NCBI RefSeq assembly: GCF_910592395.1 | Contig: NC_088318.1 | Span: 1,984,001-2,048,000 of the forward strand | Direction of reading: 5' to 3' | Length of the DNA stretch: 64,000 bases | Source: Lineus longissimus | Lineage: Eukaryota; Nemertea; Pilidiophora; Heteronemertea; Lineidae | Shown: positions 36,474-60,512 of the stretch, one piece after another | How positions within the stretch are numbered: position 1 is the first letter of the stretch | How the letters are laid out: every line of letters begins with the position of its first letter | Program-made: the position numbers and the translations under genes | Notes under the pieces: model-generated | What the model was told of the DNA's origin: nothing | Seen by the model: only the letters and a program-made list of their open reading frames with translations | Databases searched by the model: none

Positions 36474-38277
36474 TCATTCTAGCTGCAGGTGACCATTTTC
36501 CTTCTTTATCTCCTCTTTGACCTTTTCAAGAATGGTCTTGGCCAGGTAACCGTCTGTTATTTCGTTGTCTGAAATATAAAATGAATTGGTCAAAATCCTT
36601 TGAAGCAAAGAGAAACAAACTCTACTAAGTGACATTTAAGTCTTGAGGTTGGTTCTGGGTCCTTAACTTCTGATTTATCATTGATTGGGACTTGGCACCT
36701 CAAGGGCAGTTTGGGCTGTCTATGTTGACGAAAATATGAGAATAAAAATGACTTCTAAAGATAACGTCACACCTTGGCCTATTTGAAGACTAAAGATTTC
36801 ACCACCAAAACTGTTAAAGCTAAATCTGATTGTCAAATCGAATTATTGATAAAAGCCAAATTCTTATGGAGTTTGACTGTAGGTCTACCTAATCAGAGAA
36901 TAGAATATGAACAAGCTTACCATCATATCTGATGATCTGCATGCGGTTTTTGCAGTCAAATGGTTCCCTTGGATGCCCGATGAGTTGGTTCAGCTTGTTA
37001 GAGAAACGTTCCCATTCGGCAGAGAGTAGCGCCTCATCGAGGAAGCCTTCTTTCATCATCCTGCGTAAGGTTTCTGCTTGAGTGTTGTACTCAACGAAGA
37101 CAAAATACTGAAATACAAAGTGACCTGTGAGAGTAGCAAAAGCTTCTGCCAGGACCAGCGTGATCAAAGTTTTCTTAGTTCTTGCCTCCAATTGAGCTAG
37201 GGTGCTGAATGTTTATAGTTGAAAGAGTAGCCAAATACTGGTATCTTAGTCTTACATGCCCTGGACCAATGGGTTAGCTAACTGGCATAGAGAGCTCAGA
37301 GCATCAGAGAACATAAGCAGGAGAACATTGGTTCAACTTTCGAATGATCATTTCACCTCAGTGTACTTCAGCAAACACCAACCCCTACATTATTAATCGG
37401 CAACAACATGCTAATTGTAAGAAATCATCCAATCTGCTAGGAAAGTGAGTCTGTGATCGAGGGAAGTCATACTCCTTGTAACCTAAAGCTATAGTGTTAC
37501 AAAAACCAGGATAAGCTCCAGCCAGATAGTCACTTGTTGGCTTGTCAAATAGACTGTTCAATTCCAAATATTACACAAATTATAGGCCTGTGTTATTAAA
37601 AATGTAGGCCTACCTTTTTCCTTGTGGCGGGGTCAACAATGCTGCTCATCTTTGGTGAATAAACACGCCGATCATGGGTGATGTCTTTGAACGTGATATT
37701 CCTCAGTTCTTCATCATCGTCTCTGTCTATGATGTTTGAATCTGCATCTGACACCTTCTTTTGAACTTGACAAGTATGGGGGTGGAGAATGAAAAGCTTG
37801 TACGACATCAAGCGATCTTCGAATTTCTGCATAAGTTCCGGTGTCCCCGCTACGACGTTTTTCATAGCTGTAGAGTAAATTTAGTTGTATTATTACGTCA
37901 GTTGGTGTGTCTAGAATCAAACAATACATTTTGCACTATTCACACTTGTACAAGGAACTTTTTTATAGCATATTCAAATTAGACCCGATCCCTTATGGAG
38001 ACCATCATTAGACCACACTTCCTCTCGACCTTCACTGGCTTCAGGCCACAGATCTACTGCAAATCTACGACACCGTTCATGTCTTCCTTTCACTTTCATG
38101 ACAATGCTTCACCATGGAGCTGGAAAGCTTCTTCGATGGACCAGTATCGCTGTCTAAAGGGATAATAATGAAACTTGCATGGAATCTTTAAGTGGAGATA
38201 TCCATAGTAGAAACTCAAGGCAAACCCAGCTCCAATGTTGTGGAACATCAGGTCATAGGTGATTTCCTGTGAAACAC
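36474..38277 (-). CDS. STING: Copy A exons 9-12: second STING domain
   Basis: MFHNIGAGFALSFYYGYLHF parallels the STING dimer helix. RLMSYKLFILHPHTC is the next strand. HDRRVYSPKMSSIV keeps RVYS exactly as in human STING (Arg238, Tyr240, Ser241). FVEYNTQAETLRRM keeps the Glu260 and Thr263 positions; NRMQIIRYD is the last strand. An acidic insert (IIDRDDDEELRN) precedes the lid. The protein ends soon after, without the TBK1-binding tail of vertebrates. Confidence 0.85.
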
Positions 38278-41200
38278 CTGGAAAAGTTACAAGGACGAAA
38301 ACATTTTTTTATCTATCACGTTACATGATCATGGAAATAAAAATATTTTGATTCAGTTCTGGGGAATCAGAAAATATCGACAAATCTTCTACAATCCATG
38401 TGCACATATGTGGATGTCATCTGTAGTCCCTTACACAGGGTAAAAGGGCAAAATTACGTTGGCCAAGTTCGAGTTGGCCCTTTGCGTCTAGGTTCTTTGT
38501 CTCCCCAAATCAAAATGGTTTTTGGTATCCCACTGAGAGAGTATTCAGCCAAACAACTGAGACATATAGTTGATATAGTTTCTGGGATGTACATATAGAA
38601 CCTGGGACACTTGGAACCCAGGATTTACCCAGAAACCCATCTATGCCAGGAACTGACCTTCAAGTTCTGTCTTGACCTTGTGCTCCCATTCTGGATCACT
38701 GTAACTGATGCGCTTGAAAAGCAAGAGCAGCTGCAGTGCTGGGTGACTGGCAGTAGCACTGGTTAGACAATCCAAACACACCAGCAACCTGAAGTTGAAA
38801 AAGACAAATTGCTGACTAAAATGTCTATACTCAAATAACACATGTTGCTTCGAGTCCTGTCAGAACTAGAAATGACTATCCTCCTCCAAGGGAGACTAAA
38901 GGCAGGAACAGGGTAGGTCAGATTATGCTACAAAGTTGTCCATAGCGTTCTCTCCAATGACACATTACTTCCAAACTATTCACGATTGCATTTGAAATAT
39001 GAAAATTGTAAAAATGTACACCCTTCCAAGCTTATGTGGTCAAAACGTATATATATATGGTCAAAACGTATATACAATGTATATGTATCTACCCTTCCAA
39101 GCTTAGGTTTGACTCCCAGAAGGACCACATCATTAAACCTCATTGGATGTCTTTGGGCAAGAAATTTGGCTCTAACTGATGAGTGTTGAGCTTGTAATCT
39201 TACCGCCTGTCATTCACATCGTAACCATGACGCAGAATAGTGTAGAAAATGTCTTCGAATCTGTCTGAGGTGACCAATTCATCTGTGAGCACCATGAAGA
39301 CCTTCTTTAATTTGTGAAGTGTTGAATCGAATTCCTGCTCAGCAAGGAGGTCCCTGGTTGAAGCTCCATCTTGCAATTCCCTTACAAATCTCTTGATGAC
39401 ATCTTCAACACGTGGCAGGCAGATGATTCCAATTTCTTCTGTGGGAACCTCGCCAGCAGCTGTGGGAGGGGATCTGGGGCGACAGGCTTCTTTTGTCCTT
39501 TGAAAAAGGTCTTCCACCAGCTGGTCCTCAGAGGTTTCCCCTATAAAGCAATTAATATCTGCCAGTTGTGGTTCTTCACATGGCGATGTAAGAAACTGGT
39601 ACACATACATACATCGAAAATACTATTTTTCAACTGTTAATTCAAATGGTAACCTCATACCACTTTTCAAAATCGATGGCAATTAAAATTACTTACGGGG
39701 GGTGTCGTAGCTCATCAGCTGAAACTTTGAAGGATGGATGTTGTATTTCTCGTTGTATTTCCGCATACATCCACCGTACAGAAATAGCCACAATCTCTCC
39801 CTGAAGTATTTGCCTTGTTTCACCATCATTTCTTCACTCATGTCAAATAACCCAATCGATACACCATGATCGCGTAGCTTTATCAGCATTTGCAAACAGT
39901 TGGCATAGTCTGCAATACCATAGTACGTCTTGAAATGGAACAGAGAGAAAAGTTTGAAAATACATGTATACCTTCAAAATTGCCTTTTAGACCACCATTG
40001 AAGTCTGAAAAATTGAAGTACCCTAAAGCTATTATGTAATCTTGATGAATCTTGAATCGTCCATGAAGATACTAACCTCTGTTTGATCTTGTGACTTCAC
40101 CTCCCTGATGTCAATCTCGTACCTCCTGTCAATTCCTGCTCTATTCACTTGTACCTCATTCTTGTGAAATATCAAGCGGCCAAGACTGAGGTCCCTTTTC
40201 ATGATCTCAACCTTGGGATAAATCAGCATTTTCTTTGAAATATTCTCCACTGGGACATCTTTGCCAACTCCTCTGCGCCAGGGCGATTCCATGATGATTT
40301 TCTCCAAATCTGTTATCGAGAAATTAGACAAACTTACTGACACAAAATTTTGTCAAAATCTGCAATTAAAAAATGAGACAATCGTTCCAAGAATTACCCA
40401 AAAGATTTTTAAATAGAGTTAGAGCAAGGAGGTCAACTTGAACAGTCATAAAATCTGCCTGAAGTAAGGGGATTGCTCGCAACACAAACAAATCATTCTC
40501 TATTGACCTTTGCTTCAAATGAATAAACTTTGAATTTTTTGTATCTTACCTGGCAGCATGGGTGAGAGATATCCAAAAAAGTATGACCAGGCGAGGCCAT
40601 TGCCAAAATTCAGGAAGGCAAGGTTTAGGTCTTCTGGGTCATCTGCAAATATTCATCATCATCATTATCTTAGTCAATGTTTTAGTCCTGACAAACTTGG
40701 CCAATTTCAAAGGTTTAGATATTTTTGAATCGTGTACTTACTTATGTGTTAAGTTGTGCATGCAATTTTTTAATTTTTTTCATTTGTAAATGGCAGGAAT
40801 GTTGGGGGGGGGGGATTTTCCATTAAACCACCTTGCAACAATGGTAAAATCATTTATTAGAGATCGGCTACTCTGGCGGCGCATGGTGGTGGGTAGCGGT
40901 ATTATCCACCTGACCTGCTAAATCCCATGCCTATTTTGTCCCTTTACTTTGAAAGAGATGAGGCTATCTCGGACTACCAGTCAGGCAAAAACCACTTTCA
41001 CTTTCAACAATGCATAATCAAAGTGTAAAAATCTAATACAACGGTCTGCTGCATGCTCCTCCCCTTGCACACATATTGAGCTCGTCAAGTGCCGAGTGAA
41101 AAGCTCAGGATGAGGTAATTAAAAACTACAAATAAACTCAAGTACATGTATAGTTCCTGCTTCTAAAGCTCTTCATACTACAATGTAATTACCTTCATTT

Positions 41201-43738
41201 TCTTTGAAGTTTTTTCACTTGCCCTGTCTTCACTTAGCTGGGAAGAATGCCAGGTTATATCACAGAAATATTACCTTCTATAAAATGCTTAAGCTCAATT
41301 GCTATCTTGCTCCTAGTTTTCATGATCGGGTCTACCATTATCCTTCGGATGTTGCACTCCTGGAGCTCCTGAGGAAACTCTATGTATTCCTTATGATACA
41401 AGATGACTGTCACAAATGCGCGCTGGCGCTTCATCATCTAAAGGAAGTGAAGAACTTGAAATAGAGTCATTTTATCACATTGTTTCATATAAAGAGGCAA
41501 TATAAGAGGATTTTAAGTGGATATAGTGCCACTGAACAGGGCTTGAGCTGTTAGATTAATCTCGGCCTACCCAGAGTCTTCAAGATAACTATTAATTTGA
41601 AAGACTCTGGCTTCCCCAAGGACATGAAACACGTTACCCAACTTTAGAGTCTGTTTTCTTGCAGGCTATACGAATTTCATGAAATATCCATACATTTGCA
41701 AGCAATATCTTACCCTTATTGTGCATTTCCAGACTGAAACCAATGGTCACAATATATTATTGTTAAGTTGCCATTGATTAATTGTTAAGTTGCCATTGAT
41801 TAGACCAAATGTAAAAAAGACGGAAAACTATTTTTCTCGGATGCTCGTTACAAAATGAAGGAATTTTCACCCCCAAATGGTGCCTGAATAAACTCTAGGG
41901 CAGAAGAGAAGTGTTTTTTAAAAGTTCCCCCAAAGTTTTAACTGGCAAATCGGCCTAACTGCTTTTTTTGGGGGGGGGGGATACGTTGTGGAGTATACCA
42001 AGGGAGCATCTCAAAATGCCAAAAAGCCCAAAATTGATCTTTTTTAATATTCCCTAAGCAAAAGTATATATAAATACCATGTTAATTGCCTGTACCAGCT
42101 GAGCTTGTTGAAAAGACCCAGGAAAAGCTAGAATGACTCGATCATAGTTGTCCAAGAGCTGCTGAAATGTTGCCAATTTCTTTACATCAGGAACCTGCAC
42201 TCCAACGTCCCTCATGTCCAATAAAACAACACCAAGCCTTTTTTCCAAGTCACGAAGTAATTCCCATTCTTTTGGTTTCAATTCTGACTGATGCAGGATA
42301 AGGCCGCAGCCCCGTAGACCTTCCTGTGAGAAATAAAAAAATAATTTTTAATAAGACCCCCTTTAGGAGGGGCTCTTAAGATACACGTGTGTGCGGGAGT
42401 ATATAATGTAAATGAAGTGAAATAAAGAGAGTAAATATTGTATATCCAACAAACAATTTTTTTTGGTTTTTCAAAATGGCGCTGAATAAATAAATCAGAC
42501 CAGTTGTAGCGCTGAATTATAAATCAGACCAGTTGTAACAGGTTACGAGAACATCTAATTTAAATCTTCATGGGAATTCGCTACATATGCCTAAGAAATT
42601 GGCCAATTATATTGATATTTTTATTAGAGAAATATCCGTCCTAAATAATGACAGAAAAGGGTGGTTTATTTCAATTTTGTGTCGACATGGTCGAGGTCAC
42701 GTGACATAAACAAAACAATCGCGCACACCCGTCCAAAAAAGGCACTTTAAGAAAAACAAATACGTTTTTCCTGCTTAAAACCACACTGACGACTAAGTTA
42801 TATTGGTCTACTGCCCAAATCTGAAGTATCAAATTGAATCACAAACTAGAACTAGCTCTATTCAGCAATAGTTGCGTGAAAAATTCGGGTGAGCGACATT
42901 CTGCACCCTAGCGGCCAATAAATAAACTACTTTCAGCCGTCTGCTCCGGTCTCGTTAGGGAGTTTTTCCCAGTTTTCCCGCGATGATGACGTGGCCCATT
43001 AACAGGACGTAACATCTATTTTAAAATGCGTTTCCAAAGTGAATGCATGAGGACAACCCATTCGTGTCGTATATCACTGGAAACGCCCGATTCCCGTGAA
43101 TAAGGACAATCACAATGTATTACATTACCAAAACAAAACTGTGTCGGAAGGAACTATATTGATGGTCTCATCGCACCCCCCCCTCCAGCAGTATGACACA
43201 GAAGGGCTAGTTGACTGTCCACCGGGGGGGTTTGGGGGGAGCTTCCCCCCAACGCACTGGTCAAAACCTATGTCGACGGAGGGGGGTTTGGGGGGTGTCC
43301 CCCCATTGTAACAGCTGTAGTTGTTAGAGCTTGCACTCAACATATGCTCGTCGGGGGGTTCGGGGGAGCTCCCCCGACCTAAAGGGGGGCTCACTAAGTC
43401 CTTGACTTTACATATTACATCTGAAAATATCAAACAATAAGAACAACAGCTTTTTCATTTACTTAGTATGTCCGCCGATAGCCAGGGTGTAACGATTAAC
43501 ACGCATGGCCCCGCCTATAGATCCTGAGCTTAATTGCATAAAGAGATAAATAACATGCATGGGAGATCGATGAGCCCGTATTCGAACGCCAAGCACACCT
43601 TTCAGGCTTATTGACAACGCTCAGAAATTATCATTTGATCCCTTAAAATGCAGGTGTGCTTGTCGTTCGATTCTCCCATGTTACATATCTCTTTATGTTC
43701 ACGGGCCAGTGGTCTCTTTATCATGTTATACTCACCAT
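36474..43738 (-). CDS. STING: TIR-STING-TIR-STING protein, copy A
   Basis: Innate-immune sensor built of two TIR-like and two STING cyclic-dinucleotide-binding domains, about 690 residues. Coding exons in transcript order: 43738-43736 (ATG only), 42323-42078, 41437-41275, 40642-40550, 40309-40077, 39928-39697, 39540-39204, 38788-38658, 38277-38179, 37867-37614, 37107-36921 and 36568-36474 (TGA). All phases agree and total 691 codons. TIR1 is about 1-137, STING1 138-323, TIR2 324-480, STING2 481-690. No signal peptide or membrane segment is seen, unlike vertebrate STING. Intron 9 begins GC rather than GT. The start is inferred: an ATG is the last codon of the exon ending at donor GTGAGT and joins exon 2 in phase. 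It faces copy B head to head. Confidence 0.85.
38658..39540 (-). CDS. STING: Copy A exons 7-8: second TIR-like domain
   Basis: A linker (SEDQLVEDLFQRTKEACRP) leads into EIGIICLPRVEDVIKRFVRE, LKKVFMVLTDELVTSDRFED, then RRLLVCLDCLTSATASHP. Strand-VLT.E-.TSD is the TIR pattern that precedes the catalytic helix, but Trp-Cys and a clear active Glu are not seen. It joins STING1 and STING2. Confidence 0.6.
39697..40642 (-). CDS. STING: Copy A exons 4-6: first STING domain
   Basis: LAFLNFGNGLAWSYFFGYL aligns with the human STING dimer helix GLAWSYYIGYL, keeping Ser162, Tyr163, Gly166 and Tyr167 positions. KKMLIYPKVEI matches the RLYILLPLDC strand. NRAGIDRRYEIDIREV matches DRAG.K.RVY with the Arg238-x-Tyr240 pair. 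YYGIADYANCLQMLIKLRDH matches LEYATPLQTL, with Asn at the Thr263 position. Introns are nearly identical to copy B. Confidence 0.85.
41275..43738 (-). CDS. STING: Copy A exons 1-3: first TIR-like domain
   Basis: Exon 2 reads GCGLILHQSELKPKEW, LRDLEKRLGVVLLDMRDVGV, then NYDRVILAFPGSFQQAQLVQ; exon 3 reads RAFVTVILYHKEYIEFPQEL. The order beta-A, LE..G, RD.G (box-2-like), strand-FPGSF, strand-IEFP follows a TIR fold. The usual WCxxE segment with the NADase glutamate is replaced by QAQLVQAINM. The TIR call rests on pattern, not on a profile search. Confidence 0.65.
43190..43390. repeat. G/C-run-rich repeat in copy A intron 1
   Basis: Runs such as GGGGGGTTTGGGGGGAGCTT and GGGGTTTGGGGGGTGTCCCC recur three times, separated by about 60 bp. 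They could form G-quadruplexes or hairpins. Probably part of a repeat family; no gene. Confidence 0.5.
43539..43697. mobile_element. Inverted-repeat element in copy A intron 1
   Basis: CATAAAGAGATAAATAACAT, GGGAGATCGA and CGCCAAGCACACC at the left are mirrored by GGTGTGCTTG, TCGATTCTCCC and ATGTTACATATCTCTTTATG at the right, giving imperfect arms of about 60-70 bp. It lies 39 bp beyond the exon 1 donor. Confidence 0.5.
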
Positions 43739-43896
43739 ATCGAGCACGCCCACCAACCCTTCGAAAATCGGGAGATAAGAATTGATCGCGCAACAGCAAT
43801 CGTCCACCACAATTACTTAAAAGGTATCATGAGTCACACGGATTCATAGAACCTGAATGTATAAAGTGCGTGCTTCTATCTATCTGTAAACAATAT

Positions 43897-43947
43897 CTTT
43901 TTATATTTTGCGGGGAAGTTATGTGGGAATCACCGGGGGGAAATCCC
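43897..43947 (-). promoter_or_regulatory. Predicted promoter of STING copy A (TATA and kappaB-like site)
   Basis: On the minus strand TATAAAAAG (43905-43897) lies about 27-30 bp before the likely transcript start near 43870. A kappaB consensus, GGGAAATCCC (43938-43947), lies 32 bp further upstream. Exon 1 would run from about 43870 to donor GTGAGT at 43735 and carries two short upstream ATGs before the main start. Confidence 0.5.
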
Positions 43948-45229
43948 ACGTGGTGTATCGGCTGCCAAGAATTATCACTTTTCGCCGCGCCAGACACAGC
44001 ATCCCGACAATATCAGGCCATTTCACTCCGGATTACATGTATATTGAAAATCACTGGTTGTGCCACTGCCGCCAGTGCTATTGGTTTTTGCAAGTCGCGT
44101 TAACGGTTTCTCGTTCAGTTAAACCCACAGCATGAACATACTGCATTAAAGTAACAGTCGGCTTTTTATTGCAGTAGGTCTGTTCTTCTTCTGGTTCATT
44201 ATTCTGAACGTGTTATGCTTTTCCAATTTTGTTTCAGCTCTTAGATAGTAGAAAAACGCGTTATTCGTTATCTTCAGTACGCGCAGTCTTGGCGCGAAAT
44301 ACCTTTCCCGCCATGTAAGTCACCCCGTTATTAAGACGCTACGTCATTTCCATTTATCGTCGCAGTTGCGGGGTAATCAAGCGCCATCAGCGTGACGTCG
44401 GAAAAATCGATATCAGCACCATGACGTCAAGGGTAGATCCTAGCTCCAGGAAACGTTCCACGTGGAAAGAGTCGATTCTTGGAGAGCAGTAACGACAGCT
44501 GGGTAATGTTGCCCTTACTGCAAATTGTCCTATGTTGTTTTGAACAACCCAGCCCAGAGATGGACACGACCATACTGAACTTCCAGCGGCAGTATCGCCT
44601 CTGTTGCCTCTGTCCACTGAGGGCCAAGATGCGACACGACCGTCATGTCGATTAATTCAATTGACAAGACGTCTTCGTTGCAATATGTAAACTTTTCGGT
44701 CAACCGGCGTCGTCGCTATAAGAGAAATGCCATCGCCTCGAGCCTTGTCATGGCCAAATCTAATGTGGACTTGCCAAAACCAACATTGATATTATTCTAA
44801 CGGATTAGTGTAATGAAGTCTATTAATCCTTGCAACAGAGCGAAAGTTTCCAGTTTACTTTCACAAGACCAGGCAAGTTCACAATCAAGAATTCGTGATA
44901 GCAAATTTGAAAACTTTTAAGGTTTATTGTTTTTGGTGAGAGCAAAATGTGTGTGTCCTTATAAAGTTTGATGTGTGGAATGTGACAAAAATTGCCATTG
45001 ATTCTGGTTAAACAGGATGTTCAGGGGGGCATTGTGTTGACGTGCCCTTATACGTATCAGCGCAGTTGCAGAAAAGTGGTGGAGACGAGCGGTAAAGTAA
45101 GTTCAATTGTCGGCACCTCATATGCTGGATCATCCAAATTTACTGTGCAAAGCCGCTGACCTTCCGGCTTGCCGACAGCAGTCCTGCATTGTAGATTCGG
45201 AAGTCTTGTAGGCCTAATTAACTTCAGAG

Positions 45230-45345
45230 GTCTTGCACTTGGATTCGGAGTTCTTGCACTTGGATTCGGAGGGCTTGTACTTGGACTCGGAGGGATTGCA
45301 CTTGGATTCGGAGGTCTTGTACTTGGATTCAGAGGTTTTGTTCCC
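45230..45345. repeat. 21-bp minisatellite, about five units
   Basis: Units follow GGTCTTGCACTTGGATTCGG with small changes. Because 21 is a multiple of three, open frames persist on both strands (proline-rich one way, Gly/Leu-rich the other). Confidence 0.75.
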
Positions 45346-45624
45346 CCAAATGTTGATGAACCAGTGTCGCCTGAGCCCCAGGTTGTGCCATCGACATTTT
45401 CGCACCAATATTGTTCGAATGTCTTGAGACGGTCCATGTCAGTCAGTGTCCAGCAGGTTTAGAAGTCTGATGACGCACTGTTTGAGAACAAACACATCAG
45501 CCGTGAATTGTGGTAATAATCAATAGTAATGACTTATTGATTATGGGGTTTAGTCTTCATTTGGTCTTAGGTATGCCTCCAGAGATTTTCTTGAACCAGT
45601 GTACATAAAGTTCGGGGGGAACAC

Positions 45625-45753
45625 TAGGGAGTTTTCGCAAATCTCCCGAAACGCCAACGTGGACGCCTATCTCATTGTTTGACCTCCTGATGAAGTCGAA
45701 CAATGCGATAGGCGTTAACGTGGACGTTTCGGGAGCTTTGCGAAAACTCCCTA
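45625..45753. mobile_element. Hairpin MITE upstream of GST
   Basis: Near-perfect inverted repeat with arms of about 60 bp: TAGGGAGTTTTCGCAAA at the left, TTTGCGAAAACTCCCTA at the right, with GATAGGCGT-type inner motifs mirrored. It lies about 170 bp before the GST start codon. Confidence 0.7.
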
Positions 45754-45921: not shown

Positions 45922-48900
45922 ATGGCGAGTGCCATCACCCCGCCGGGTAGCACCGGCAGCGGAGACGGCGGCAAGAAAGTACTAAAGAAACCCGTGGAAT
46001 TATACTTGGTCAGGATTTATCCGCCTTGCAGAGCTGTTTGGCTATATCTTTTACAGGTAAGAACCCGTCCTGGCCTTATTTTTCATTTTTAGGCCACGTC
46101 GTCAATATATTGTCATGTGTCCCCTTAAGGTCATATACCGACTTGATAAAAATTGATATAATGGTACAAATTTGATGTATGTCTTTACTGGGTCAACAGT
46201 TAAGATTTATTCAATGTGTATTTATTGTTAAAGGCCTCCGCCGTTTGTTAAATATATGAAATTTGTTATTAAATTTGAGAATTTCTATTGCGTAAATGCG
46301 TCTAAATATAAATTTCGACATATCCCGTTGTGAAGACAGATGTACAAATACTATTCACACCTCGGTTCAGCAAAGTAAGTTGTATACGTCATGACTGCAT
46401 GCACTATACGGCATTTAGCATAACTGCGTGTGCTCTATCTCCTGTCGGCGTGAAATCTCGAATCCAATTTCCAAAAATATAATGTGTTGATCGAAATGTG
46501 TTTACGACCGATTATACTTGGTAGACAGACAAAAAAACAACGTTAACCCAAGATAACTAGATAAATTTTTTTAATGTATCCAAAAAGATAACAAGAACAT
46601 ATTATTATGAGCCTTGAGAGTTTTTCGAATGACACGATTCTTTTTCTCACTCGTTACACTTTACAGAACCAGATCCCCCATAAACTCATCGACGTAGACT
46701 TCACCAAAGGCGAAGAGACCACGCCTGAGTTCATCCAGAAAAATCCTCACCAGGAAGTCCCCATACTGGTTGATGGGGATGTGGTCGTCTTTGAAGGGTG
46801 AGAGTCGGTGAGGGTCTTCTCGATCGTGGGGTGTGCACGGAGCTCCCACGCGGTACTGATACAGTCCGGACGCAGTTGACCGGCCTCGTCCTGTCTCCCG
46901 GTACATAAGGAGATCCAATTAGGATGCTGCAATGGGCTGCCACAGGAGTCTTGGCCTTATTGGTGGAAAGTTTACATAGAATTTTATTTTGGAGCTCGAG
47001 AAACCGGAGGGTCATTAGATGTCTGTTGTGTAAACAGAAGGTAACATGTATTGGTGAGGGATTATGCGGGTTTGGGATGGTCGGTCCACTGTAAAAAGCA
47101 TAACTTTTACTGAGCTTGAGAAACCTAACGAGTACCATGAGCCTGCATGTAGTAGTGTCAGTATCTGCATGAGATGAGTAAAAAGAGCAGACATATGTAG
47201 AAAAGGCATTGTTCTTTGAATATATTCCGACTATATAGGCCTAGTATGTGGCGAGAGCAGTACACGCACGTTATCGTTTTCTGCGGCGTCAAAGATCATC
47301 GATGGATCCAGAGTATTTTGTGATCAAGCGAGGGTGGGGTGGGGGGGGGGGGGGGGGGGGGGGCGTGGTCTGCATTCCCCCATGTGTGGTCATAGTAGAC
47401 CCTAAGTACTTTTGACGTGCTGGTTCGGATAGCATGGTTGATAATGGTGTTTTTCGTTTCAGCCAAGCAATCCTACGGTATCTGGCATCGGAGTACACCA
47501 ATCATAAATATTATGGCCATAACACATCAACGAGGTTCCTCTGTGAGTCCATGATAAGCTGGGCAAACTCAGATCTACACCGGTAAGATTATACTTGAAC
47601 CATTAAGTGAAGTTGGCGACCCGATAGTGTCAAAAAAATATTGTCTTTAAACTGATGGGCAACCAAAGACAAGGTGCACATACTCTCAAGGGATTGATCC
47701 TAAAGCACCAAGCACCAAGCCTATAATCATCACTGCCGCATTATATTTCTTTTTCTAACGCTTCATTGAAGTTAATGTGTCAGTTCAAACCTGGGTAGTG
47801 ATGTGTTTATCGAGAAAAATTAAAACGACCATATTGGAGTGTTTGTCTTCGGGTGTGGTTGTTCCTCTACCGTATAGAGTGTCCCGGCCGGGGAGGAACC
47901 GCTCTCCTCAGTAATTGTGATCCACCCCGGCCGCGAGTTTTGTTTTTTTTACAGGTATAGGTTCGTACCATTGTGTACATTGACAGCCAATCAGAGCTCA
48001 GTAACTTCGCCTGACGTCATCAAATAAGAAACGCACGTGTTGTTAGTCAGTAAACAAGATCAGCGATGCACATTGACAAATGGTGCGAGTTCAATCTCGG
48101 AAGGACCCAAAAAATTATGCCCTTTTGCATAATTATGCGCAGAATGTACACAATGGTACGAACCTACCTGTAAAAAAAACTCGCGGCCGGGGGGAACCGC
48201 TCTCCTCAGAAATTGTGATCCACCCCGGCCGGGACACAGCAGAGGTACAACCACCCCCGAAGACAAACAAATACTTTCTGCTGCAGGGTGGTTGGATACC
48301 GGTACACATACCCCCAGTTTCTGGAGAAATTCCGACTACCAACCGATTCTGCCAATGAGGCCCTGATCGAATCCGGCATTAAACAACTGACAAAACATCT
48401 GGAAACTATAGAAAGGCGATATTTAGAGAAGGGCAGGTAAGATGCAGCTTGATCCTCAGTATATTGACATTGCTCAGTGAGGCAATACCGCTGGAAGTTC
48501 AGTATGGGAATACGTCGGTGAGGGTCATGCAGTAAAATTGCTGACTGCGTGTAAAAGAATCTAACGTAGTTCATCCGAAGAGTTGGGTGGATCACATCCC
48601 CCTCCCATTTGTTGAAAGATTGAGAAACTGACGATCTTATAGGCCTACATGTAGAAGCGTTTGTTCGTTGGACTATATTTCGTGGATCTAAGATACCCTT
48701 TCAAACCGGTCAGTTAGACCAAATCTTGGGAATAGCTCATTGACACCCATAGATTTTGTGGAACTGTCTCGCTAAATGTTATTCGTCACTTTTCAGATTT
48801 CTTTGCGGAGACAAGATGACAGTTGCGGATTCGTACGTGGCGACTATTCTGGTTCAGATGGAATGGGTGGGGTTTAAGTTCTCTATGTGGCCAAAGCTAG

Positions 48901-49007
48901 AAGACTGGCTGAGTCGAGTGAAGAGACAGGACTTTTGGAATGAGGTGCATGCTGCACATAATGCTTTTGTGACAGAATTAGAAGGTGCCAATTACATGTT
49001 TGATTGA
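45922..49007 (+). CDS. GSTT: Glutathione S-transferase, theta class
   Basis: Cytosolic enzyme that conjugates glutathione to electrophiles. Exons 45922-46056, 46667-46797, 47463-47582, 48287-48436 and 48797-49007 (TGA) join in phase to 248 residues, normal for the theta class (about 240). Residues 25-45 (VELYLVRIYPPCRAVWLYLL) are the thioredoxin-fold first strand and helix; theta enzymes use a Ser here, and this copy shows the stretch RIYPPCRAV instead of the usual S.PsRav. KNPHQEVPILVDGD is the glutathione-binding cis-Pro loop, QAILRYLA the next helix, and DKMTVADSYVAT the C-terminal N-capping box. The N-terminus has a 20-residue low-complexity extension. It lies between the two STING genes. 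Confidence 0.9.
47339..47363. repeat. Poly-G tract in GST intron 2
   Basis: An almost uninterrupted run of more than 20 G lies in the intron. The opposite-strand open frame it creates is poly-proline and not a gene. Length is likely variable and prone to sequencing error. Confidence 0.7.
47841..48268. mobile_element. 428-bp MITE next to the GST exon 4 acceptor
   Basis: Inverted repeats begin GTTTGTCTTCGGGTGTGGTT and end ACCACCCCCGAAGACAAAC; inner blocks CCGGCCGGG, GAACCGCTCTCCTCAG and GGTTCGTACCATTGTGTACA are also mirrored. The right end stops 18 bp before exon 4, so it supplies part of the acceptor region. Confidence 0.75.
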
Positions 49008-49934: not shown

Positions 49935-49957
49935 CGTATGTCGGGTGTGTTTTAAAC

Positions 49958-50549: not shown

Positions 50550-51985
50550 ATGGCTCATCAACAGGCTGCGGATGATAAGGTAAAAAGTTATCAATTAGTT
50601 GTTAGCAGTAGCTGAGTAGGCCATGTGTTTCCCAGTATGTGTGTTTCCAAGTACTTATATGGCCAAGTAACCAGGTACCTGTGTTTCCCAATAGGGCCTA
50701 CCTATATTTTCCAGTACCTATATGGCCAAGTAACCAGGTACCTGTGTTTCCCAGTATGTGTGTTTCCAAGTACATGTACTTATATGGCCAAGTAACCAGG
50801 TACCTGTGTTTCCCAGTAGGGCCTACCTATATTTTCCAGTACCTATATGGCCAAGTAACCAGTACCTATGTTTCCCAGTAACTATAATGCCCAGTAACCA
50901 GGTACCTGTGTTTCCCAGTAGGGCCTACCTATATTTTCCAGTACCTATATGGCCAAGTAACCAGGTACCTGTGTTTCCCAGTAACTATAATGCCCAGTAA
51001 CCAGGTACCTGTGTTTCCCAGTAACTATAATGCCCAGTAACCAGGTACCTATGTTTCCCAGTATCTGTGTTTCCCAGTACCTATATATATATATATATTT
51101 ATATTATTGCTTTTCTTTACAGCATACGGTTCGCCGCAGTGGTCTTATCTTACATCCATCAGATTATTCTAGAGAAGAACGTCCCCAGACACCTGAACCA
51201 CAGCTGGATAAAGAGCGTAAATTTGTTGGATGCTTAAAGGATGAACTTTTAAGGCAAAACATTAACCTTAAAACATTGCAATGGACGCCGGAGACTGGGG
51301 TAGATAACCCTGAACATGTGAAGAAATTGGTAGAAATCCAGGAACACCATGACCACAACGAGCGAATCATTCTCGCATTCCCTGGATCATTTGTAAAGGC
51401 TCAGCTGGTACAGGCAGTTAACATGGTAATTGTGGCAGTATGATATTGATATAGAAGAATAACATATTTAGCAGAATGTTTCCTTTGATGTTTTATTATA
51501 GTTATTGTGTACTTTTCTATCAGTCCGACACTCTCAATTTTGGAAAGGTTGTACGTATAAAATTTATGAAGAAAAAACTATGAAATTTGCATCACATGTC
51601 TAAAGAAGGAGTGTCCCTGGACCAGTCCAGCACTAAAGAAATTTGTTGAGATCGATTCTGTGATTGTCGGAAAATATGCACTAATCAGGGGTATAGCTTG
51701 GGGGGCAGGGGGAAAATGTTGTCCCCCCAGAAGTCACCAAAATACACAAATACAATTAAAACCTGTACTGTAATTGATTGGTCTGTCATTGACTCTTTAT
51801 GTTCTTAACATTTTCCATTTAGATAGTGAAACGTAAGTGTGCCTTTGTGACAGTCATAATGTATCAGAATGAATACATTGAATTCCCCCATGACCTTGAC
51901 GCATTCAAAGTGCAAAGGATTTTGGTCAACAGGCCTATGAAAGATATTGAGGGGATAGTCGGCGAACTGAAGAATTTCATTATAG
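50550..51985 (+). CDS. STING: Copy B exons 1-3: first TIR-like domain
   Basis: RRSGLILHPSDYS, then FVGCLKDELLRQNINLKTLQ, ERIILAFPGSFVKAQLVQAV and CAFVTVIMYQNEYIEFPHDL. It has the same secondary-structure order as copy A but is only roughly 40-50 % identical by eye and has 19 more residues in exon 2. The catalytic-Glu helix is again KAQLVQAVNM. This is the fast-evolving part of the pair. Confidence 0.65.
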
Positions 51986-54900
51986 GTATTTATTGACATA
52001 ATATTGTTGACATGGAACCAACCCATATGGCAGCAACTCTAGATATCATTTCTGGCCTAGACCTTGAAGAACGGTAGCATTAGGAGCAGATGCTACATGA
52101 TGTTATTCAATTGTAGTTTTTAATCCCCCCATCCTAAGATTTTCACACGAGCTCAGTATGTGTGCAAGGGGAGGAGCATGAAGCTGACTCAGTTACTCGA
52201 GGTTGCAATTACCAAAATGATTTCAATTACTCTTTAAATATACTTTTGTAAAAGTGAAATTTGTTTTAGCTAAACCGGTAGTTCGAGAAGGTCTTCATCT
52301 CTTTGAAGTAAAGGGACAGTATATGTGTGGGATGTAGGTGGTCAGGAGGATAATTCCGCTGCCCTCCACCATGGGCCGCCAGTAGTATTACAATAAAGTA
52401 GATTTCTAACAAACGTTTTTTGCTTTTAGTTGCAATTTTGCCAACTATGAATAAAAAATCCAACATGTCTCATGCCCAACTACGTATTTGTATTCACAAA
52501 ATATCTAAACCTTTGAAATCAGCTGCTTTTTCTGGATACAAAACTTAAGATGATATATATTTGCAGATAACCCAGAGGACCTAAAGCTTGCCTTCCTCAA
52601 TTTTGGCAATGGCCTCGCCTGGTCATACTTTTTTGGATATCTCTCACCCATGCTACCAGGTAAGATACAAAAATTAGAAGTTTATTCAAATAAAGCAAAG
52701 GCCTTTATACCACACAATAAAGAATGATTTGTTTGTGTTTTGTGCAATCCCCTTACTCTTGGCCAAGTTGACGTTCTTCTGGTTAGTGTAGACAAAAAAT
52801 CTCGTAATTTTTCGTACTTTTTGGAACGATTGTCTAATTTTTCTAATCGTGTGTCAGTAAGTTTGTCTAATTTCTCGATAACAGATTTGGAGAACATCAT
52901 TATGCAATCGCCCTGGCGCAAAGGAGTTGGCAAAGATGTCCCAGTGGAGACTATTTCAAAGAAAATGCTGATTTATCCCAAGGTTGAGATCAAGAAAGGG
53001 GACCTCAGTCTTGGCCGCTTGATATTTCACAAGAATGAGGTACAAGTGAATAGAGCAGGAATTGACAGGAGGTACGAGATTGACATCAGGGAGGTGAAGT
53101 CACAAGATCAAACAGAGGTTAGTATCTTCATGGACGATTCAAGATTCATCAAGATTACATAATAGCTTTAGGGTACTTCAACTTTTCAGACTTCAATGGT
53201 GGTCTAAAAGGAATATTGAAGGTATACATGTATTTTCAACATTTTTTCTCTCTTCCATTTCAAGACTTACTATGGTATTGCAGACTATGCCAAATGTTTG
53301 CAAATGCTGATAAAGCTACGCGGTGGGTTATTTGACATGAGTGAAGAAATGATGGTGAAACAAGGCAAATACTTCAGGGAGAGATTGTGGCTATTTCTGT
53401 ACGGAGGATGTATGCGGAAATACAACGAGAAATACAACATCCATCCTTCAAAGTTTCAGCTGATGAGCTACGACACCCCCCGTAAGTAATTTTAATTGCC
53501 ATCGATTTTGAAAAGTGGTATGAGGTTACCATTTGAATTAACAGTTGAAAAATAGTATTTTCGATGTATGTATGTGTACCAGTTTCTTACATCGCCATGT
53601 GAAGAACCACAACTGGCAGATATTAAGTGTCAGTCCATGATACCACCATGCAGAGGGTGGCAAGGTGGGGGTCAACCGTTTTTAACGAGATTAGGTATGC
53701 AAGATCCTTCCACTAAGACATCATTACACAGCAATTGATGACTCTCAAAAATCACTAGCAACCGAGTTAGGGGCAGGCCTAGTTAGGGGGCTTGTTTTAG
53801 CTTTTTTACCCCTATTTTTGTGTATTTTTGGGTCAATGTTGGGCACTCCTGCAGAGACTAAAAAAAATAGCTGGATTTTCCCCCTTTGTATGATGGAAGT
53901 ATTTGATGAGATCTTCCATTCTGCAACAGGTCATTCAGTAACACTTCATACTTTGGTCGTGCTAGGCCTAGTAATTATGCATACCTAGGGGCAGTGCTTA
54001 GGAAGAGCTCTCTATCGACGCTCATATCTCCAACACTGCAGGTCTTTGAATGCTGTGGCTTGCACATGATAAAGGTAATGATACCAACTTTCAAAATCAG
54101 AAATAAAATTTCCGGCCGCTTTTACTGTTTTCCCAGGATAAACCAAGGAAAAAGTGTTATTTTCCACCAAAATGACACTCATTGGCTAGTGCTGCCACCT
54201 TGTGTACACTTGATGAATTATAAAATAAATGCATAATGAACACATAATTTATGCTTGGTGCTGGCCATGAGGATTAGTAGTTACTGTCAACCACCATGAT
54301 CACCCCCCCCCCCCCCCCCCCCCCCATGCCTAGGCCTACTAACCTATTTTAAGGCCTACCGGTAAATAACTCCACTTGCATTTTCCCCCAAAAAAGAACA
54401 AGCTCATCACTACAAATTTGCCCTTGATGAAAGCCCTTTGGGGAATTAGGCCCCATAGGTCCTGAAATGCTGATTTGAATTTCAAATAACATTTCGGCCT
54501 TGGCCTACCTGATGGCAACGTAATTGAATAAGCTACATGTAGGCCTTCTTACAGTCCGAAAACCTAAAGAAACCCCCCTGTTGGTGAGGATGCTAATGTT
54601 GACCCATCATTAGCCTGTGTCATGCTGCCAGAGCATGTTGTAAGGGTTGGACCCCCCCCCCCCATGGCTAAGGCACCTGAAGGGCATGTGGTATGACCTA
54701 CTAATACATCTTTATCAACCCATGCAGGGATCATCCCGTTCCTAAGAACCTAGCAGAAGTGCTCATTTCACATACTAGTAACACCTTCCATTGCTAAGGA
54801 GCCAATTGACCAAAGGTGCAGTTCCTACTGTAATTACTGTTTGATGAGGACAACCCTGCAGTTGGCTGCACCGTCAGAGTACTGCTATTGGAAGTTTTTA

Positions 54901-57900
54901 GCTCCTTGGTTGGCGGTGAAATGTTCTCCTGGAGTTGCTCTAGCATTGGCTAAATTGTACATATACATGTACTTGAATGGAGAAGTTTTTCATGAACTGA
55001 GTTATGGTACTGTCCAGTCCCTTAGGAGAGATCACAACTTTCCACATGCTACACTTGTACCTGTCTGCAGAGGACAGTGCTGCCACCTAAGAAGCAGGGA
55101 CACTTTTTTTTTACAAATGGGTGATTTATTTACAAGCTAATATAATGATACATAGAAAAAGGCTATTTTGCAGACAATAGCCAAACCACTACTAACCACT
55201 ACTAGGGAGGGACCAATACTAGTAACACCTCATTTACGGTACTACATGTCAGGCCCAAGTGCAGGATAGTATCAGGAGAGAGTCCCACTTTCCAGTAGCA
55301 GGCTTGGTTGTTCAAAACTGACATTAGCGCTACTAAGTATACTGACATTAAAAATCTATCTTGGCATTTACAATTGTTTACTGAAAGCCAAAGTTCAAAT
55401 TTATCCCAAGATATCGCTATAAAATCATTTTTTAACCAAGCCCCGCATTTTACCTGATGAACCATCCGCTAGATATACTAGAACATCAAATCTGGATGTC
55501 CTTCATATTGCAGGTTATGTTAGTCAAGGGAGACAAAAACACACTATGTAACAGTTTTAGGAAATTCACCATGCATTTTTTTTAGAAAAAGAGAGATGTA
55601 TTGCAGAATGCGAACAATGCATTTGCAATCAATGGCGTGGAAAATCTCAGGTCAAGCCTGATGAATGTACATCCAATAAAGTCGTACCCTTTCATTCTAA
55701 ATCAAGAATTCTTGATGTGTAGCTGACAACTTTCACTGGGCTAATTCTGCCCAGTCATGACTCAAAGACCAACATTTCAGAAAATCTGTCTCCACCCTCT
55801 TATCATTTCTCTCTCCCAGCTCAAGAGTGCTTGATCAGCAGTCCTTATGATACTGTTGCAACAACATTACCCATCAAATTTGCCCTTCTGTCCCGTCTGC
55901 TGGGTTTTCTAAGGCGTCGGCTGGTTGAACAGAGGAAGAGGCAACAGCGGACTGGAAAAAGATATTGATGGAGAATCAGGTTTGGCTTAGAATCCCTCAT
56001 TGCCAAGGAGATGGGAGCCAGAATGGCACCAAGGTTTTCAGCTTAGTCCCTCCTCTCTCATCAGTGACCTTCTTACAATCAGTCGCTGAAAGGCAGAATT
56101 AACCAATATTCACTTTGGCTTGCCCCGAATCTTCTCCCCTTTTTTTCATTCAACTCACCTCTGTATCCATGGGTGCTGGTTCTACTTCTGGTTCTACATT
56201 TGCCACAGATACTCGATGTTTAGCCTCACATCCTTTACACAGAGCTGAAAAGGCACCAGATTATGGGGGTAATGATTAATGATGTGCAATATAATAGTGT
56301 GAGGACATGATGATGATGATAGACTTGTTTTGATAATGCGACCGGCCATGCTGATTTTGTACGGCAGTGAAGCATCACCTCCAGTGGCACTGGCAGGGAA
56401 TCATAACTGGGACTTCCTGATCATCAAGCCAAGGCTCAAATCAACTTTCTAGGAAGAACACAAGTGAAGTGGTAAATCGTTATCACTCAGTTGGTTTTGC
56501 ACCAAAGTTAGGTTTAGTCAGAGTGGGTATCATTACAGGCCTACTGCTTCTTTTCTACTTCAGTGATTTTGAGACTGATCCCTTACCTGAGCCAACTGGG
56601 ACAAAAACTCCCCATGATGTATATTTCCCGAGACATCACTCGATGAACTGAACCACCATCTTTTCTGGGCTTCCGACTTGTTTTAGAGGGTTGATGAAGT
56701 GGGTGCTGGCATCTCCTTTGCTGATTCCATGATAAACTCAACTTGTATCGGTGGTTCGGGCATATTGTGGTGTCCAGAACTGGAGAACTCATATCAAACA
56801 CGCCAGCACGAAGTGCTATGAGCTCCCATTCACTTTTGACTTGACTGGCTTTCCTGGAGGACATCCAACGCATCAAATGGGAGTGCACGTCCTTCTTACA
56901 TTATTTCAAGGGGATCACACTCTTGTCATTGGGGTATGAAGCGTCAGTACCACACTCGATATCCTTGGATATGACAGCAAATCCACATTTCAACTGTGAT
57001 TTTTCAGGTTCCATTTTCAATAGACTATCACACAATGTACACGTGCATGTACACAATGCATTGTAACTGTAACTGTTGTTGTTGTTGTCGTTGCTGGTGT
57101 ACGTTTCCGCCTAGACCGCTAAGCCTCCACAGGGGCAATAAAGGCCTCTAGGTTGTTTGAGGGAGTGTGTGGGAGGGGCAAGGGAGAGGGGGGTTCACTA
57201 ACATCTAAAAATGTAATTTTATTTGGAAAGCATGTGTATTTCGTCAGTTATCTGAGGGAATGGGCAAGAAATGGGCACCAGTGAGAAGGGCGCGACTCGA
57301 CCCCCTCACCGGAAAACCGTAAGGGCGGCCGGATTTTTTTCTTTTGCAAATTAAAAAACAGCACTCTGACTTCCTTACCTGGAAGTGGCATCACCTAAAA
57401 AACTGCAGTGTTGGAGCTAAAGGAGAGTTAAAATTGCCTTTTTACTGAAATTTGAGATTGCATTGTTTTTGGGACGTACTGTACCTGTCATTAAAATGTA
57501 CCTGGGGCAAAACAAAAGGCATGAAAAGGTAGCTCAGATCATGTACTTTCAATTTCAATAGGCGGTCTTTAGTGATAATTCTGTTTGATGCACAAAAATT
57601 GACAAAAGACTTAGCCTAATTTGAGGGATAATGCATGTTTTTTTAAAAGGAAAATGAGTAGGAAATGGTTAACAGCCGTACCCCAAAACTGTGGGGTTAT
57701 TTTCGAAACCAATCCACCAGCCTCCATAGTACCCTAGGACAGGTCTGTGGTAGAAATTACAACTAGATCTGTTGACCCCCCACCTTGCCACCATTTGCAT
57801 GATCCTGCATGGTGGTATCATGGACTGACACTTAATTGCTTTATAGGGAAAGCCTCTGAAGACCAGCTGGTGGAAGACCTTTTTCAAAGGACAAAAGAAG

Positions 57901-60512
57901 CCTGTCGCCCAAGATCCCCTCCCACGGCTGCTGGTGAGGTTCCCACAGAAGAAATTGGAATCATCTGCCTGCCACATGTTAAAGATGTCATCAAGAGATT
58001 TGTAGGGGAATTGCAAGATGGAGCTTCAACCAGGGACCTCCTTGCTGAGCAGGAATTCGATTCAACACTTCACAAATTAAAGAAGGTCTTCATGGTGCTC
58101 ACAGATGAATTGGTCACCTCAGACAGATTCGAAGACATTTTCTACACTATTCTGCGTCATGGTTACGATGTGAATGACAGGCGGTAAGATTACAAGCTCA
58201 ACTCTCATCAGTTAGAGCCAAATGTCTGGCCCAAAGACATCCAATGAGGTTTAATGATGTGGTCCTTCTGGGAGTCAAACCTAAGCTTGGAAGGGTATAC
58301 ATATATATACGTTTTGACCATATATATATACGTTTTGACCACATAAGCTTGGAAGGGTGTACATTTTTACAATTTTCATATTTCAAATGCAATCGTGAAT
58401 AGTTTGGAAGTAATGTGTCATTGGAGAGAACGCTATGGACAACTTTGTAGCATAATCTGACCTACCCTGTTCCTGCCTTTAGTCTCCCTTGGAGGAGGAT
58501 AGTCATTTCTAGTTCTGACAGGACTCGAAGCAACATGTGTTATTTGAGTATAGACATTTTAGTCAGCAATTTGTCTTTTTCAACTTCAGGTTGCTGGTGT
58601 GTTTGGATTGTCTAACCAGTGCTACTGCCAGTCACCCAGCACTGCAGCTGCTCTTGCTTTTCAAGCGCATCAGTTTCAGTGATCCAGAATGGGAGCACAA
58701 GGTCAAGACAGAACTTGAAGGTCAGTTCCTGGCATGGATGGGTTTCTGGGTAAATCCTGGGTTCCAAGTGTCCCAGGTTCTATATGTACATCCCAGAAAC
58801 TATATCAACTATATGTCTCAGTTGTTTGGCTGAATACTCTCTCAGTGGGATACCAAAAACCATTTTGATTTGGGGAGACAAAGAACCTAGACGCAAAGGG
58901 CCAACTCGAACTTGGCCAACGTAATTTTGCCCTTTTACCCTGTGTAAGGGACTACAGATGACATCCACATATGTGCACATGGATTGTAGAAAATTTGTCA
59001 ATATTTTCTGATTCCCCAGAACTGAATCAAAATAATTGTTATATTCATGATCATGTAACGTGATTGATAAGAAAATGTTTTCGTCCTTGTAACTTTTCCA
59101 GGTGTTTCACAGGAAATCACCTATGACCTGATGTTCCACAACATTGGAGCTGGGTTTGCCTTGAGTTTCTACTATGGATACCTCCACTTTAAGATTCCAT
59201 GTAAGTTTCATTCCTTTAGACAGCCATACTGGTCCATCGAAGAAGCTTTCCAGCTCCTTGGCCTGAAGCTGGTGAAGGTCGAGGGGAAGTTTGGTCTAAT
59301 GATGGTCTCCATAAGGGATCGGGTCTAATTTGAATATGCTATAAAAAAGTTCCTTGTACAAGTGTGAATAGTGCAAAATGTATTGTGCGATTTTAGACAC
59401 ACCAACTGACGTAATAATACGACTAATTTTACTTTCCAGCCATGAAAAACGTCGTAGCGGAGACACCGGAACTTCGAAAGAAATTCGAAGATCGCTTGAT
59501 GTCGTACAAGCTTTTCATTCTCCACCCCCATACTTGTCAAGTTCAAAAGAAGGTGTCAGATGCAGATTCAAACATCATAGACAGAGACGATGATGAAGAA
59601 CTGAAGAATATCACGTTCAAAGACATCACCCATGATCGGCGTGATTATTCACCAAAGATGAGCAGCATTGTTGACCCCGCCACAGGGAAAAAAGTAGGCC
59701 TAGAGTTTTATTAACACAGGCCTATCATTTATGCAATGATATTTGAAAAGTTGAAGTTGAAGTCTATTATGCTCAATTTGGGAGGTTGCATTTAGTGACT
59801 AGGAGTTCACTCCCTTGAATAGTATGGAATTCACTACAGGCCAGATGGCTTTCCATTTAAAACATGTGGGAGAAAAATGTAGGTGTAGGTGCCTTGCTCA
59901 AGGATGAAGAGCTGACAGTGGTGATCTATCCCAGAGTATATGGTAAATGGTTCTATTGAAGCCATAACCTTCAATCAGTGATCAAAAGGGCATAGAATAC
60001 ATTATTCCCCAGGCATTCTATCCGAGGACATTTCAAACTTTTACGCGGTCTAAAGAGAAACTTTTGCTACTCTTTTTGTTTCAGTATTTTGTCTTCGTTG
60101 AGTACAACACTCAAGCAGAAACCTTACGCAGGATGATGAAAGAAGGCTTCCTCGATGAGGCGCTACTCTCTGCCGAATGGGAACGTTTCTCTAACAAGCT
60201 GAACCAACTCATTGTGCACCCAAATGAAACACTTGGCTGCAAAAACCGCATGCAGATCATCAGATATGATGGTAAGCTTGTTCATATTCTATTCTCTGAT
60301 CAGGTAGACCTACAGTCAAACTTCATAAGAATTTACAGAAGCACTCTGGGTTACGAAGGCGCTGTTGCAAGTCACCCACTCACTCCATGACATTAATAAA
60401 GTGATTATGATCAATTCATACTTCAGACACAACTGTGACAGACCTCGCCGAGACCATTCTTGACAAGGTCAAACAAGAGATACAGAAGGAAAATGGTGTC
60501 CTGGACCTGTAA
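50550..60512 (+). CDS. STING: TIR-STING-TIR-STING protein, copy B
   Basis: Paralogue of copy A in opposite orientation. Coding exons: 50550-50579, 51123-51425, 51823-51985, 52567-52659, 52885-53117, 53265-53481, 57847-58183, 58590-58720, 59102-59200, 59440-59693, 60085-60271 and 60427-60512 (TAA). They total 711 codons with all phases consistent and no stops. The start ACCATGG is a strong Kozak context and gives MAHQQAADDK. Domains: TIR1 about 11-165, STING1 166-346, TIR2 347-503, STING2 504-710. No membrane segment. Intron 6 holds a 4.2-kb transposon absent from copy A. Exon 6 is 15 nt shorter than in copy A. The presumed role is cyclic-dinucleotide sensing and signalling in the cytosol. Confidence 0.88.
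50634..51085. repeat. Minisatellite in intron 1 of STING copy B
   Basis: Units built on AGTAACCAGGTACCTGTGTT, TCCCAGTA, GGGCCTACCTATATTTTCCA and GTACCTATATGGCCA repeat about seven times with internal variation. A TATATATA run closes it just before exon 2. Open frames across it are artefacts. Confidence 0.8.
52567..53481 (+). CDS. STING: Copy B exons 4-6: first STING domain
   Basis: LAFLNFGNGLAWSYFFGYL, KKMLIYPKVEIKKGDLSL, NRAGIDRRYEIDIREVKS and TYYGIADYAKCLQMLIKLR give the ordered STING motifs, with Lys at the Thr263 position. It ends RKYNEKYNIHPSKFQLMSYD, matching the CRLIAYQ strand. Five residues present in copy A after KLR (within DHGVSIG) are missing. Confidence 0.85.
53627..57831. mobile_element. 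4.2-kb TTAA-flanked DNA transposon (piggyBac-like) in copy B intron 6
   Basis: Starts GTGTCAGTCCATGATACCAC and ends with the exact mirror; 27 bp are perfect and similarity continues inward (GGTGGCAAGGTGGGGGTCAA). It is flanked by TTAA on both sides (53623-53626, 57832-57835). Copy A has the empty site, a single TTAA in the same sequence context. TTAA duplication is the hallmark of piggyBac. I see no intact transposase; open frames inside (53994-54236, 54841-55140, 56583-56888) are short and unrecognised. A poly-C run lies near 54303-54325. Confidence 0.85.
57847..58720 (+). CDS. STING: Copy B exons 7-8: second TIR-like domain
   Basis: SEDQLVEDLFQRTKEACRP linker, EIGIICLPHVKDVIKRFVGE, LKKVFMVLTDELVTSDRFED and LLVCLDCLTSATASHPALQL. 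Nearly identical to copy A. The exon 7 acceptor lies 11 bp after the transposon's flanking TTAA. Confidence 0.6.
59102..60512 (+). CDS. STING: Copy B exons 9-12: second STING domain
   Basis: MFHNIGAGFALSFYYGYLHF, RLMSYKLFILHPHTC, HDRRDYSPKMSSIV (Val239 position changed to Asp; Arg and Tyr kept), YFVFVEYNTQAETLRRM and NRMQIIRYD. Exon 9 ends with a normal GTAAGT donor, unlike copy A. The C-terminus is KVKQEIQKENGVLDL and lacks a TBK1-binding tail. Confidence 0.85.
59880..59950 (+). repeat. Dispersed repeat fragment, related to 412-520
   Basis: TTGCTCAAGGA and CAGTGGTGATCTATCCC match the copy at the start of the window. It lies in intron 10 of STING copy B and is absent from the shorter homologous part of copy A. 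Confidence 0.45.

Follow-up and report, generated by a model that had tools for sequence, protein, structure and literature searches.

Vertebrate-type membrane STING is a homodimer that holds one ligand on its two-fold axis. Each chain has membrane helices, one STING domain and no TIR domain. Other STING domains follow a TIR domain in the same chain. In bacterial TIR-STINGs of the type found in Sphingobacterium faecium (SfSTING), dimers bound to c-di-GMP stack into filaments, which turns on the NADase activity of the TIR (PMC9402430). TIR-STING fusions are also described from oyster and Capitella (PMC6723221). The oyster protein is a rare animal fusion with an unclear role for its TIR, and the fusions of animals and bacteria are considered to have arisen by convergence (PMC10732462). 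Here we describe an inverted pair of genes, copies A and B, from the nemertean Lineus longissimus, whose products each carry two STING domains, each preceded by a putative TIR. They lie in a window of 64,000 nucleotides, C11:1984001-2048000 of the 391,118,348-base genome.

The Lineus proteins resemble SfSTING in placing a TIR position before STING, but SfSTING is a single unit, is an NADase with a catalytic Glu and belongs to the bacterial STING class. The oyster TIR-STING (Crassostrea gigas, PDB 6WT6/6WT7; sequence match at E 5.2e-10) likewise has its STING after an N-terminal TIR and has no membrane segment. Unlike this oyster-type fusion, in which each chain carries a single TIR and a single STING, the four Lineus double proteins (A, B and two paralogues on C16 and C9) have two STINGs and two TIR positions. 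Oyster-group proteins examined also differ in that Pfam recognises their TIR and in that they keep R232. With vertebrate-type STING the Lineus proteins share the ligand-binding domain and the equivalents of R238 and Y240. Residue numbers follow human STING and are positioned by motif on the bird row of the alignment.

Two STING domains in one chain

The first-pass annotation of this locus had proposed that both copies encode two complete STING domains without a membrane anchor. The products are listed as the uncharacterized proteins LOC135496214 (copy A, 690 residues) and LOC135495498 (copy B, 710 residues). When each domain was scored alone, all four exceeded the curated Pfam cut-off of 27 bits for STING_LBD (PF15009), with 53.6 and 77.9 bits for STING1 and STING2 of copy A and 49.4 and 78.4 bits for those of copy B (E 4.6e-13 to 5.8e-22). 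In a sequence search of the PDB, the nearest solved structures were STING proteins and the oyster TIR-STING 6WT6, the best three at E 3e-10 to 5e-10. The highest 19-residue Kyte-Doolittle means of the A and B proteins are 1.04 and 1.29, compared with 2.19-2.88 in four membrane STINGs. Both parts of the proposal are therefore borne out.

Searching the genome with the copy A protein returned 31 exon matches (E <= 0.001), of which 21 were in the window, six on C16 and four on C9. Two further complete double genes, new here beyond A and B, are located at C16:5739873-5733957 (786 residues without the first exon) and C9:12257654-12270570 (730 residues without the first exon), which brings the double genes in this genome to at least four. 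Both proteins contain two STING_LBD stretches, and eleven exons follow in identical order in all four genes. The C16 and C9 splice sites were sought in the A/B phases, which gave a pair for every exon, and one was picked where two fitted, so their equal phases show consistency but do not count as independent evidence. C16 and C9 are 42.6% and 39.2% identical to A and 47.7% to each other; all pairs apart from A-B fall between 38.6 and 47.7%. The last exon of C16 adds about 85 C-terminal residues, many of them in Pro/Ala/Glu-rich sequence, that are absent from the other three double genes. Chance or artefact was considered and rejected, given STING domains over curated cut-offs that recur in four genes.

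A single exon (A 39540-39204; B 57847-58183) encodes first the last STING1 helix and then the first half of TIR2. A junction exon of this composition is present in all four Lineus double genes. Because STING1 ends and TIR2 begins within one exon, a split into two genes at this point is unlikely. The intron before it in copy A, which is 156 nucleotides long and without a polyA signal, and the paralogues argue in the same direction. The earlier suggestion of a double unit in one chain thus holds: in four of four genes, a single open frame spans both STINGs and both TIR positions.

It is accordingly very improbable that annotation has wrongly joined two adjacent single TIR-STING genes. This explanation could appeal to the gap of 4.2 kb between STING1 exon c and exon TIR2a in copy B, and to an in-frame ATG within the 156-nucleotide intron of copy A, which makes an alternative start formally possible and from which a shorter product could in principle begin. 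The gap is wide because of a 4.2-kb insertion (53622-57836, unstranded) in the intron between STING1c and STING1d, found in copy B and absent from A. This insertion has TTAA at each edge and perfect 32-nucleotide inverted ends, and looks like a TTAA-type DNA transposon. The earliest Met in the copy B junction exon is residue 82. Besides the shared exon in all four genes, a chiton protein with identical domain order, described below, speaks against misjoining.

Pocket residues and relatives of the double proteins

The roles of R232 and R238 in STING have been described (PMC10219357). The R232-equivalent is Arg in 31 of 31 single STINGs that have a letter there (32 examined, one with a gap). In the five double proteins, namely the four from Lineus and the one from chiton, it is Arg in all first STINGs and in none of the second STINGs, under three alignment modes. 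The second-STING letter at this position is D in A and B, A in chiton and K in C9, while for C16 the alignments give H and reading by eye gives K, the shortened loop making the column unsure. R238- and Y240-equivalents are kept in all ten STINGs of the double proteins, and Lineus STING1 carries the equivalents of R232, R238, Y240 and Y167. At the G166-equivalent, all 31 single STINGs and all five first STINGs have Gly; three of the five second STINGs, that of chiton among them, have Arg. The lid loop of STING2 is shortened in C16 and C9. Loss of the R232-equivalent in the second STING only suggests that the two halves may differ in job.

The chiton protein was one of 33 proteins found in a protein search with the oyster query. 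Liolophura sinensis LOC135479118 isoform X2 (740 residues) has two TIR_2 stretches (E 3.2e-28) and two STING_LBD stretches (E 1.3e-67). Like the Lineus proteins it is a TIR-STING-TIR-STING chain that keeps R232 in its first STING and has lost it in the second. Unlike them, it has two plain TIRs and a longer STING1-TIR2 linker, and it is 23% identical to A. Protein searches with Lineus, oyster and chiton STING1 queries gave no further double TIR-STING; such searches depend on short exact words in common with the query, are limited in length and in number of candidates, and may overlook distant relatives (the Lineus query did not list C16 or C9). With chiton STING1 as query, 214 candidates yielded no protein but the query itself. 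No description of a double TIR-STING protein was present among the best-ranked matches of a literature search on tandem, nemertean and mollusc STING, which mostly covered papers outside subscription, nor in passages of the papers cited above or of PMC9980059, PMC8204762, PMC12424679, PMC5869526, PMC8218723, PMC13142454, PMC9334734 and PMC5549309.

We also built a phylogenetic tree of 28 STING domains, leaving out four long-branch rows of an earlier tree. The four Lineus STING1s form one clade (support 100/100) and the four STING2s another (100/99). These separate clades indicate that the double unit predates the split of the four genes and was copied as a unit, so the fusion is older than the Lineus double-gene family. 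The Lineus STING1 and STING2 clades join each other with support of 86/83, a grouping that may be false, as the program warns of long branches. A common origin of the chiton and Lineus double proteins was neither shown nor rejected by the approximately unbiased (AU) test, with p values of 0.34 for joining first STINGs with first and 0.38 for second with second (0.11 and 0.20 in the earlier tree, which lacked C16 and C9).

TIR positions and a proposed receptor

The proposal that a TIR precedes each STING was upheld only in part. TIR2 is supported via the C9 paralogue and TIR1 by its position, but no TIR profile matches A or B directly. Profile checks of the two window proteins gave all four STING domains over the cut-off and no TIR match in either protein (TIR models of Pfam or PADLOC, E up to 1). 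The C9 protein does match Pfam TIR_2 in two stretches, with E 3.8e-5 for the whole protein and 24.6 bits, which is below the curated cut-off of 28. When the C9 TIR1 and TIR2 segments were searched alone, TIR_2 was the best Pfam model for both (E 0.026 and 0.012). C16 had no TIR profile match in Pfam, neither as a whole protein nor as segments.

We then scored the segments against our own TIR profile, made from five oyster-group, two chiton and one further TIR, with 1000 shuffles each. C9 TIR2 scored 17.0 bits, which none of its 1000 shuffles reached. For the other TIR2s the score was reached by 20 (A), 22 (B) and 25 (C16) shuffles, and for TIR1 by 38 (C16) and 60 (C9). TIR1 of A and B gained no support, with 354 and 417 shuffles reaching the score. 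The best z in 32 pairwise TIR shuffle tests was 2.9, compared with 9-27 for chiton-oyster controls, and profile-profile comparison with our TIR set was not significant (hhalign probability <=2.6%). PDB searches with single A/B TIR segments had no TIR among their matches. A four-sequence profile of Lineus TIR1 found no match in the PDB, and a three-sequence profile of TIR2 found four, all of them pheromone-binding proteins at E >=0.19. On the strength of C9 we take TIR2 as TIR-derived, and TIR1 is probably so, judging from its position and the C9 match.

Read by eye, with an unsure register, the catalytic Glu position in helix C is not Glu in seven of the eight Lineus TIRs. By eye, the comparison TIRs have E in the oysters, E in chiton TIR1 and Q in chiton TIR2. 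Partly for this reason we favour a receptor that would sense mainly by STING1 and use its TIRs for docking. Our proposal, which we hold to be about evenly balanced between right and wrong, is a soluble double TIR-STING receptor for cyclic dinucleotides, with a near-canonical STING1, an altered STING2 and TIRs that dock rather than cleave NAD. A cyclic dinucleotide, perhaps from a worm Mab-21/cGAS-like protein, would be bound mainly through STING1, with STING2 as a specialised partner, either for an altered ligand or as a mainly structural half. Ligand binding would drive oligomerisation, after which the TIRs would serve as docking surfaces for cytosolic adaptors, not as NAD-cleaving enzymes. 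Two STINGs per chain could form an internal STING1:STING2 pseudo-dimer, or two parallel chains could form two stacked dimers, a ready-made start of a filament-type STING stack. Putative dinucleotide makers exist in Lineus, since Mab-21_C has 66 profile matches over the cut-off in this genome, which point to a large cGAS-like or Mab-21-like gene family. Several of these matches are clustered on C17, C16, C20 and C8, and one is on C11 about 76 kb beyond the window.

Other readings of the same proteins have to be weighed. We consider it improbable that the TIR positions are occupied by another alpha/beta Rossmann-like domain and not by TIRs. Such a domain would suit the lack of any TIR profile match to A, B and C16 and the lack of a TIR among the PDB matches of the Lineus TIR1 and TIR2 profiles, but it sits poorly with TIR_2 as the best model for both C9 segments, with the C9 TIR2 score above all 1000 shuffles and with plain TIRs at the corresponding places of the chiton protein. 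A still less probable reading has only STING1 at work, with STING2 and both TIRs as decaying relics of a tandem duplication. The barely recognisable TIRs, the missing R232 of STING2 and the shortened lid loops of C16 and C9 could be read as decay. Yet the eleven exons are open-framed in four deeply diverged genes (the C16 and C9 splice sites having been chosen to keep phase), STING2 outscores STING1 on the STING profile in both A and B, and the A-B ratios of nonsynonymous to synonymous divergence (dN/dS) are below 1.

The first-pass annotation had suggested that the double unit could be a pre-formed pseudo-dimer or bind two different ligands. Pairing of STING1 with STING2 of the same chain is possible but rather unlikely. 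It would give a single-chain pseudo-dimer with one asymmetric pocket, containing one R232- and two R238-equivalents, that would respond without needing a second chain or would favour an asymmetric dinucleotide. The R232 asymmetry runs the same way round in five genes and two phyla, R238 and Y240 are kept in both halves, and a short linker (by eye, about 15 residues) joins STING1 to TIR2 in A and B, all of which fit such a pairing. No structure model supports it, however, and two parallel chains fit equally well. At W161, the dimer-contact Trp of STING, the four Lineus STING2s have L or M, whereas W is kept in the chiton STING2 and in four of the five STING1s, so the dimer interface has not been uniformly rebuilt.

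A broader idea, which we put forward tentatively and think unlikely, is that the tandem TIR-STING-TIR-STING is spiralian and predates the split of molluscs and nemerteans. Its second STING would have lost the R232 contact, and the unlike STINGs, from one chain or from two parallel ones, would build a hetero-pocket or a ready-made stack in place of the homodimerisation of STINGs that find each other through ligand. If this is true, the asymmetric spiralian receptor would let nature itself show whether a symmetric dimer is required for STING signalling. With a second STING that lacks the ligand arginine kept in all single STINGs compared, the half-sites are separated genetically in the double proteins, and working half by half one could test whether symmetry is required, how much each arginine contributes and in which order dimerisation and stacking occur. 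It is also suggested that the rare animal TIR-STING fusion is perhaps older, or more often reinvented, than oyster data alone imply.

Several points weigh against the double receptor as we propose it and against its spiralian origin. TIR1 of A and B was recognised by no profile tried. Both AlphaFold predictions were unusable, with a mean predicted local distance difference test score (pLDDT) of 32.7 from 3 rows and 36.5 from 8 rows; strands and helices of TIR1 alternate in a TIR-like order in the second model, which was not counted at pLDDT 36.5. Gap-free counting places a Glu at the catalytic position of C16 TIR1, and the register of the other Lineus TIRs is unsure, so NAD cleavage is possible. 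In A and B, STING1 departs somewhat from the canonical form, as its E260-equivalent is D and its T263-equivalent is N or K, and C9 STING1 has S at the W161-equivalent. The single STINGs used for comparison came via words shared with oyster STING, which favours conserved ones. The 66 Mab-21_C matches are at the profile level only. Lastly, chiton and Lineus share three private residues in their second STINGs and one in their first, compared with two and 3-4 in the crossed pairings. Private shared residues were therefore rejected as synapomorphies, there being no excess over crossed pairings.

Gene models, A-B divergence and neighbouring features

Exon models of A and B were built from splice sites and open frames and then compared to the listed proteins. 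The model of A equals the listed protein letter for letter from residue 2 (689 residues), and that of B from residue 11 (700 residues). Each gene has eleven main coding exons and one small first exon. Exon start phases from TIR1a, identical in A and B, are 0, 0, 1, 1, 0, 1, 2, 1, 1, 0 and 1. STING1 and STING2 have alike intron phases (1, 1, 0, 1), in keeping with duplication of a unit. A PF15009 family search of the genome, in which 10 candidates were scored, found one exon, which overlaps STING1 exon a of copy B.

Copy A runs on the minus strand from 42323 to 36474. Its first exon, a single Met codon upstream of TIR1a, has four candidate positions, among them 43738-43736 (ATG followed by GTGAGT). 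The coding part of exon TIR1a is at 42078-42323 and TIR1b at 41275-41437. STING1 consists of exon a (40550-40642), exon b (40077-40309), where the R232-, R238- and Y240-equivalents are kept, exon c (39697-39928) and the beginning of the junction exon. TIR2b (38658-38788) is followed by STING2 exons a (38179-38277), with a GC donor and not GT after it, b (37614-37867), which contains the D at the R232-equivalent, c (36921-37107) and d with the stop codon (36474-36568).

Copy B is on the plus strand, from 50550 to 60512. A search for its first coding exon placed 10 residues at 50550-50579, and TIR1a (51123-51425) and TIR1b (51823-51985) come next. STING1 exons a, b and c are at 52567-52659, 52885-53117 and 53265-53481. 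After the junction exon, TIR2b (58590-58720) leads to STING2 exons a (59102-59200), b (59440-59693; D at the R232-equivalent), c (60085-60271) and d with the stop codon (60427-60512). The limits given in the first-pass annotation, 36474 and 60512, coincide exactly with the final bases of the two stop codons.

The two copies are unevenly alike along their length. From STING1 exon a to STING2 exon c their exons are 95-99% identical, compared with about 67-69% for the TIR1 exons and 78% for the last exon. Synonymous divergence (dS) is 0.052 from STING1 to STING2 exon c, 1.55 in TIR1 and 0.30 in the last exon. Because these steps between regions are sharp, they suggest that gene conversion may have evened out the middle of A and B and left both ends to diverge. 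The A-B dN/dS is 0.25 in TIR1, 0.48 from STING1 to STING2 exon c (Fisher p 0.026) and 0.81 in the last exon.

About 8 kb separate the inverted copies, and glutathione S-transferase exons (GST_N, GST_C) lie between them at 46592-49007. A minisatellite array (50624-51092) lies within intron 1 of copy B. Another, at 10516-10971, has a 45-base unit that is open in several frames. Near the window end, a carbon-nitrogen hydrolase exon of the nitrilase family is found on the minus strand at 63468-63764.

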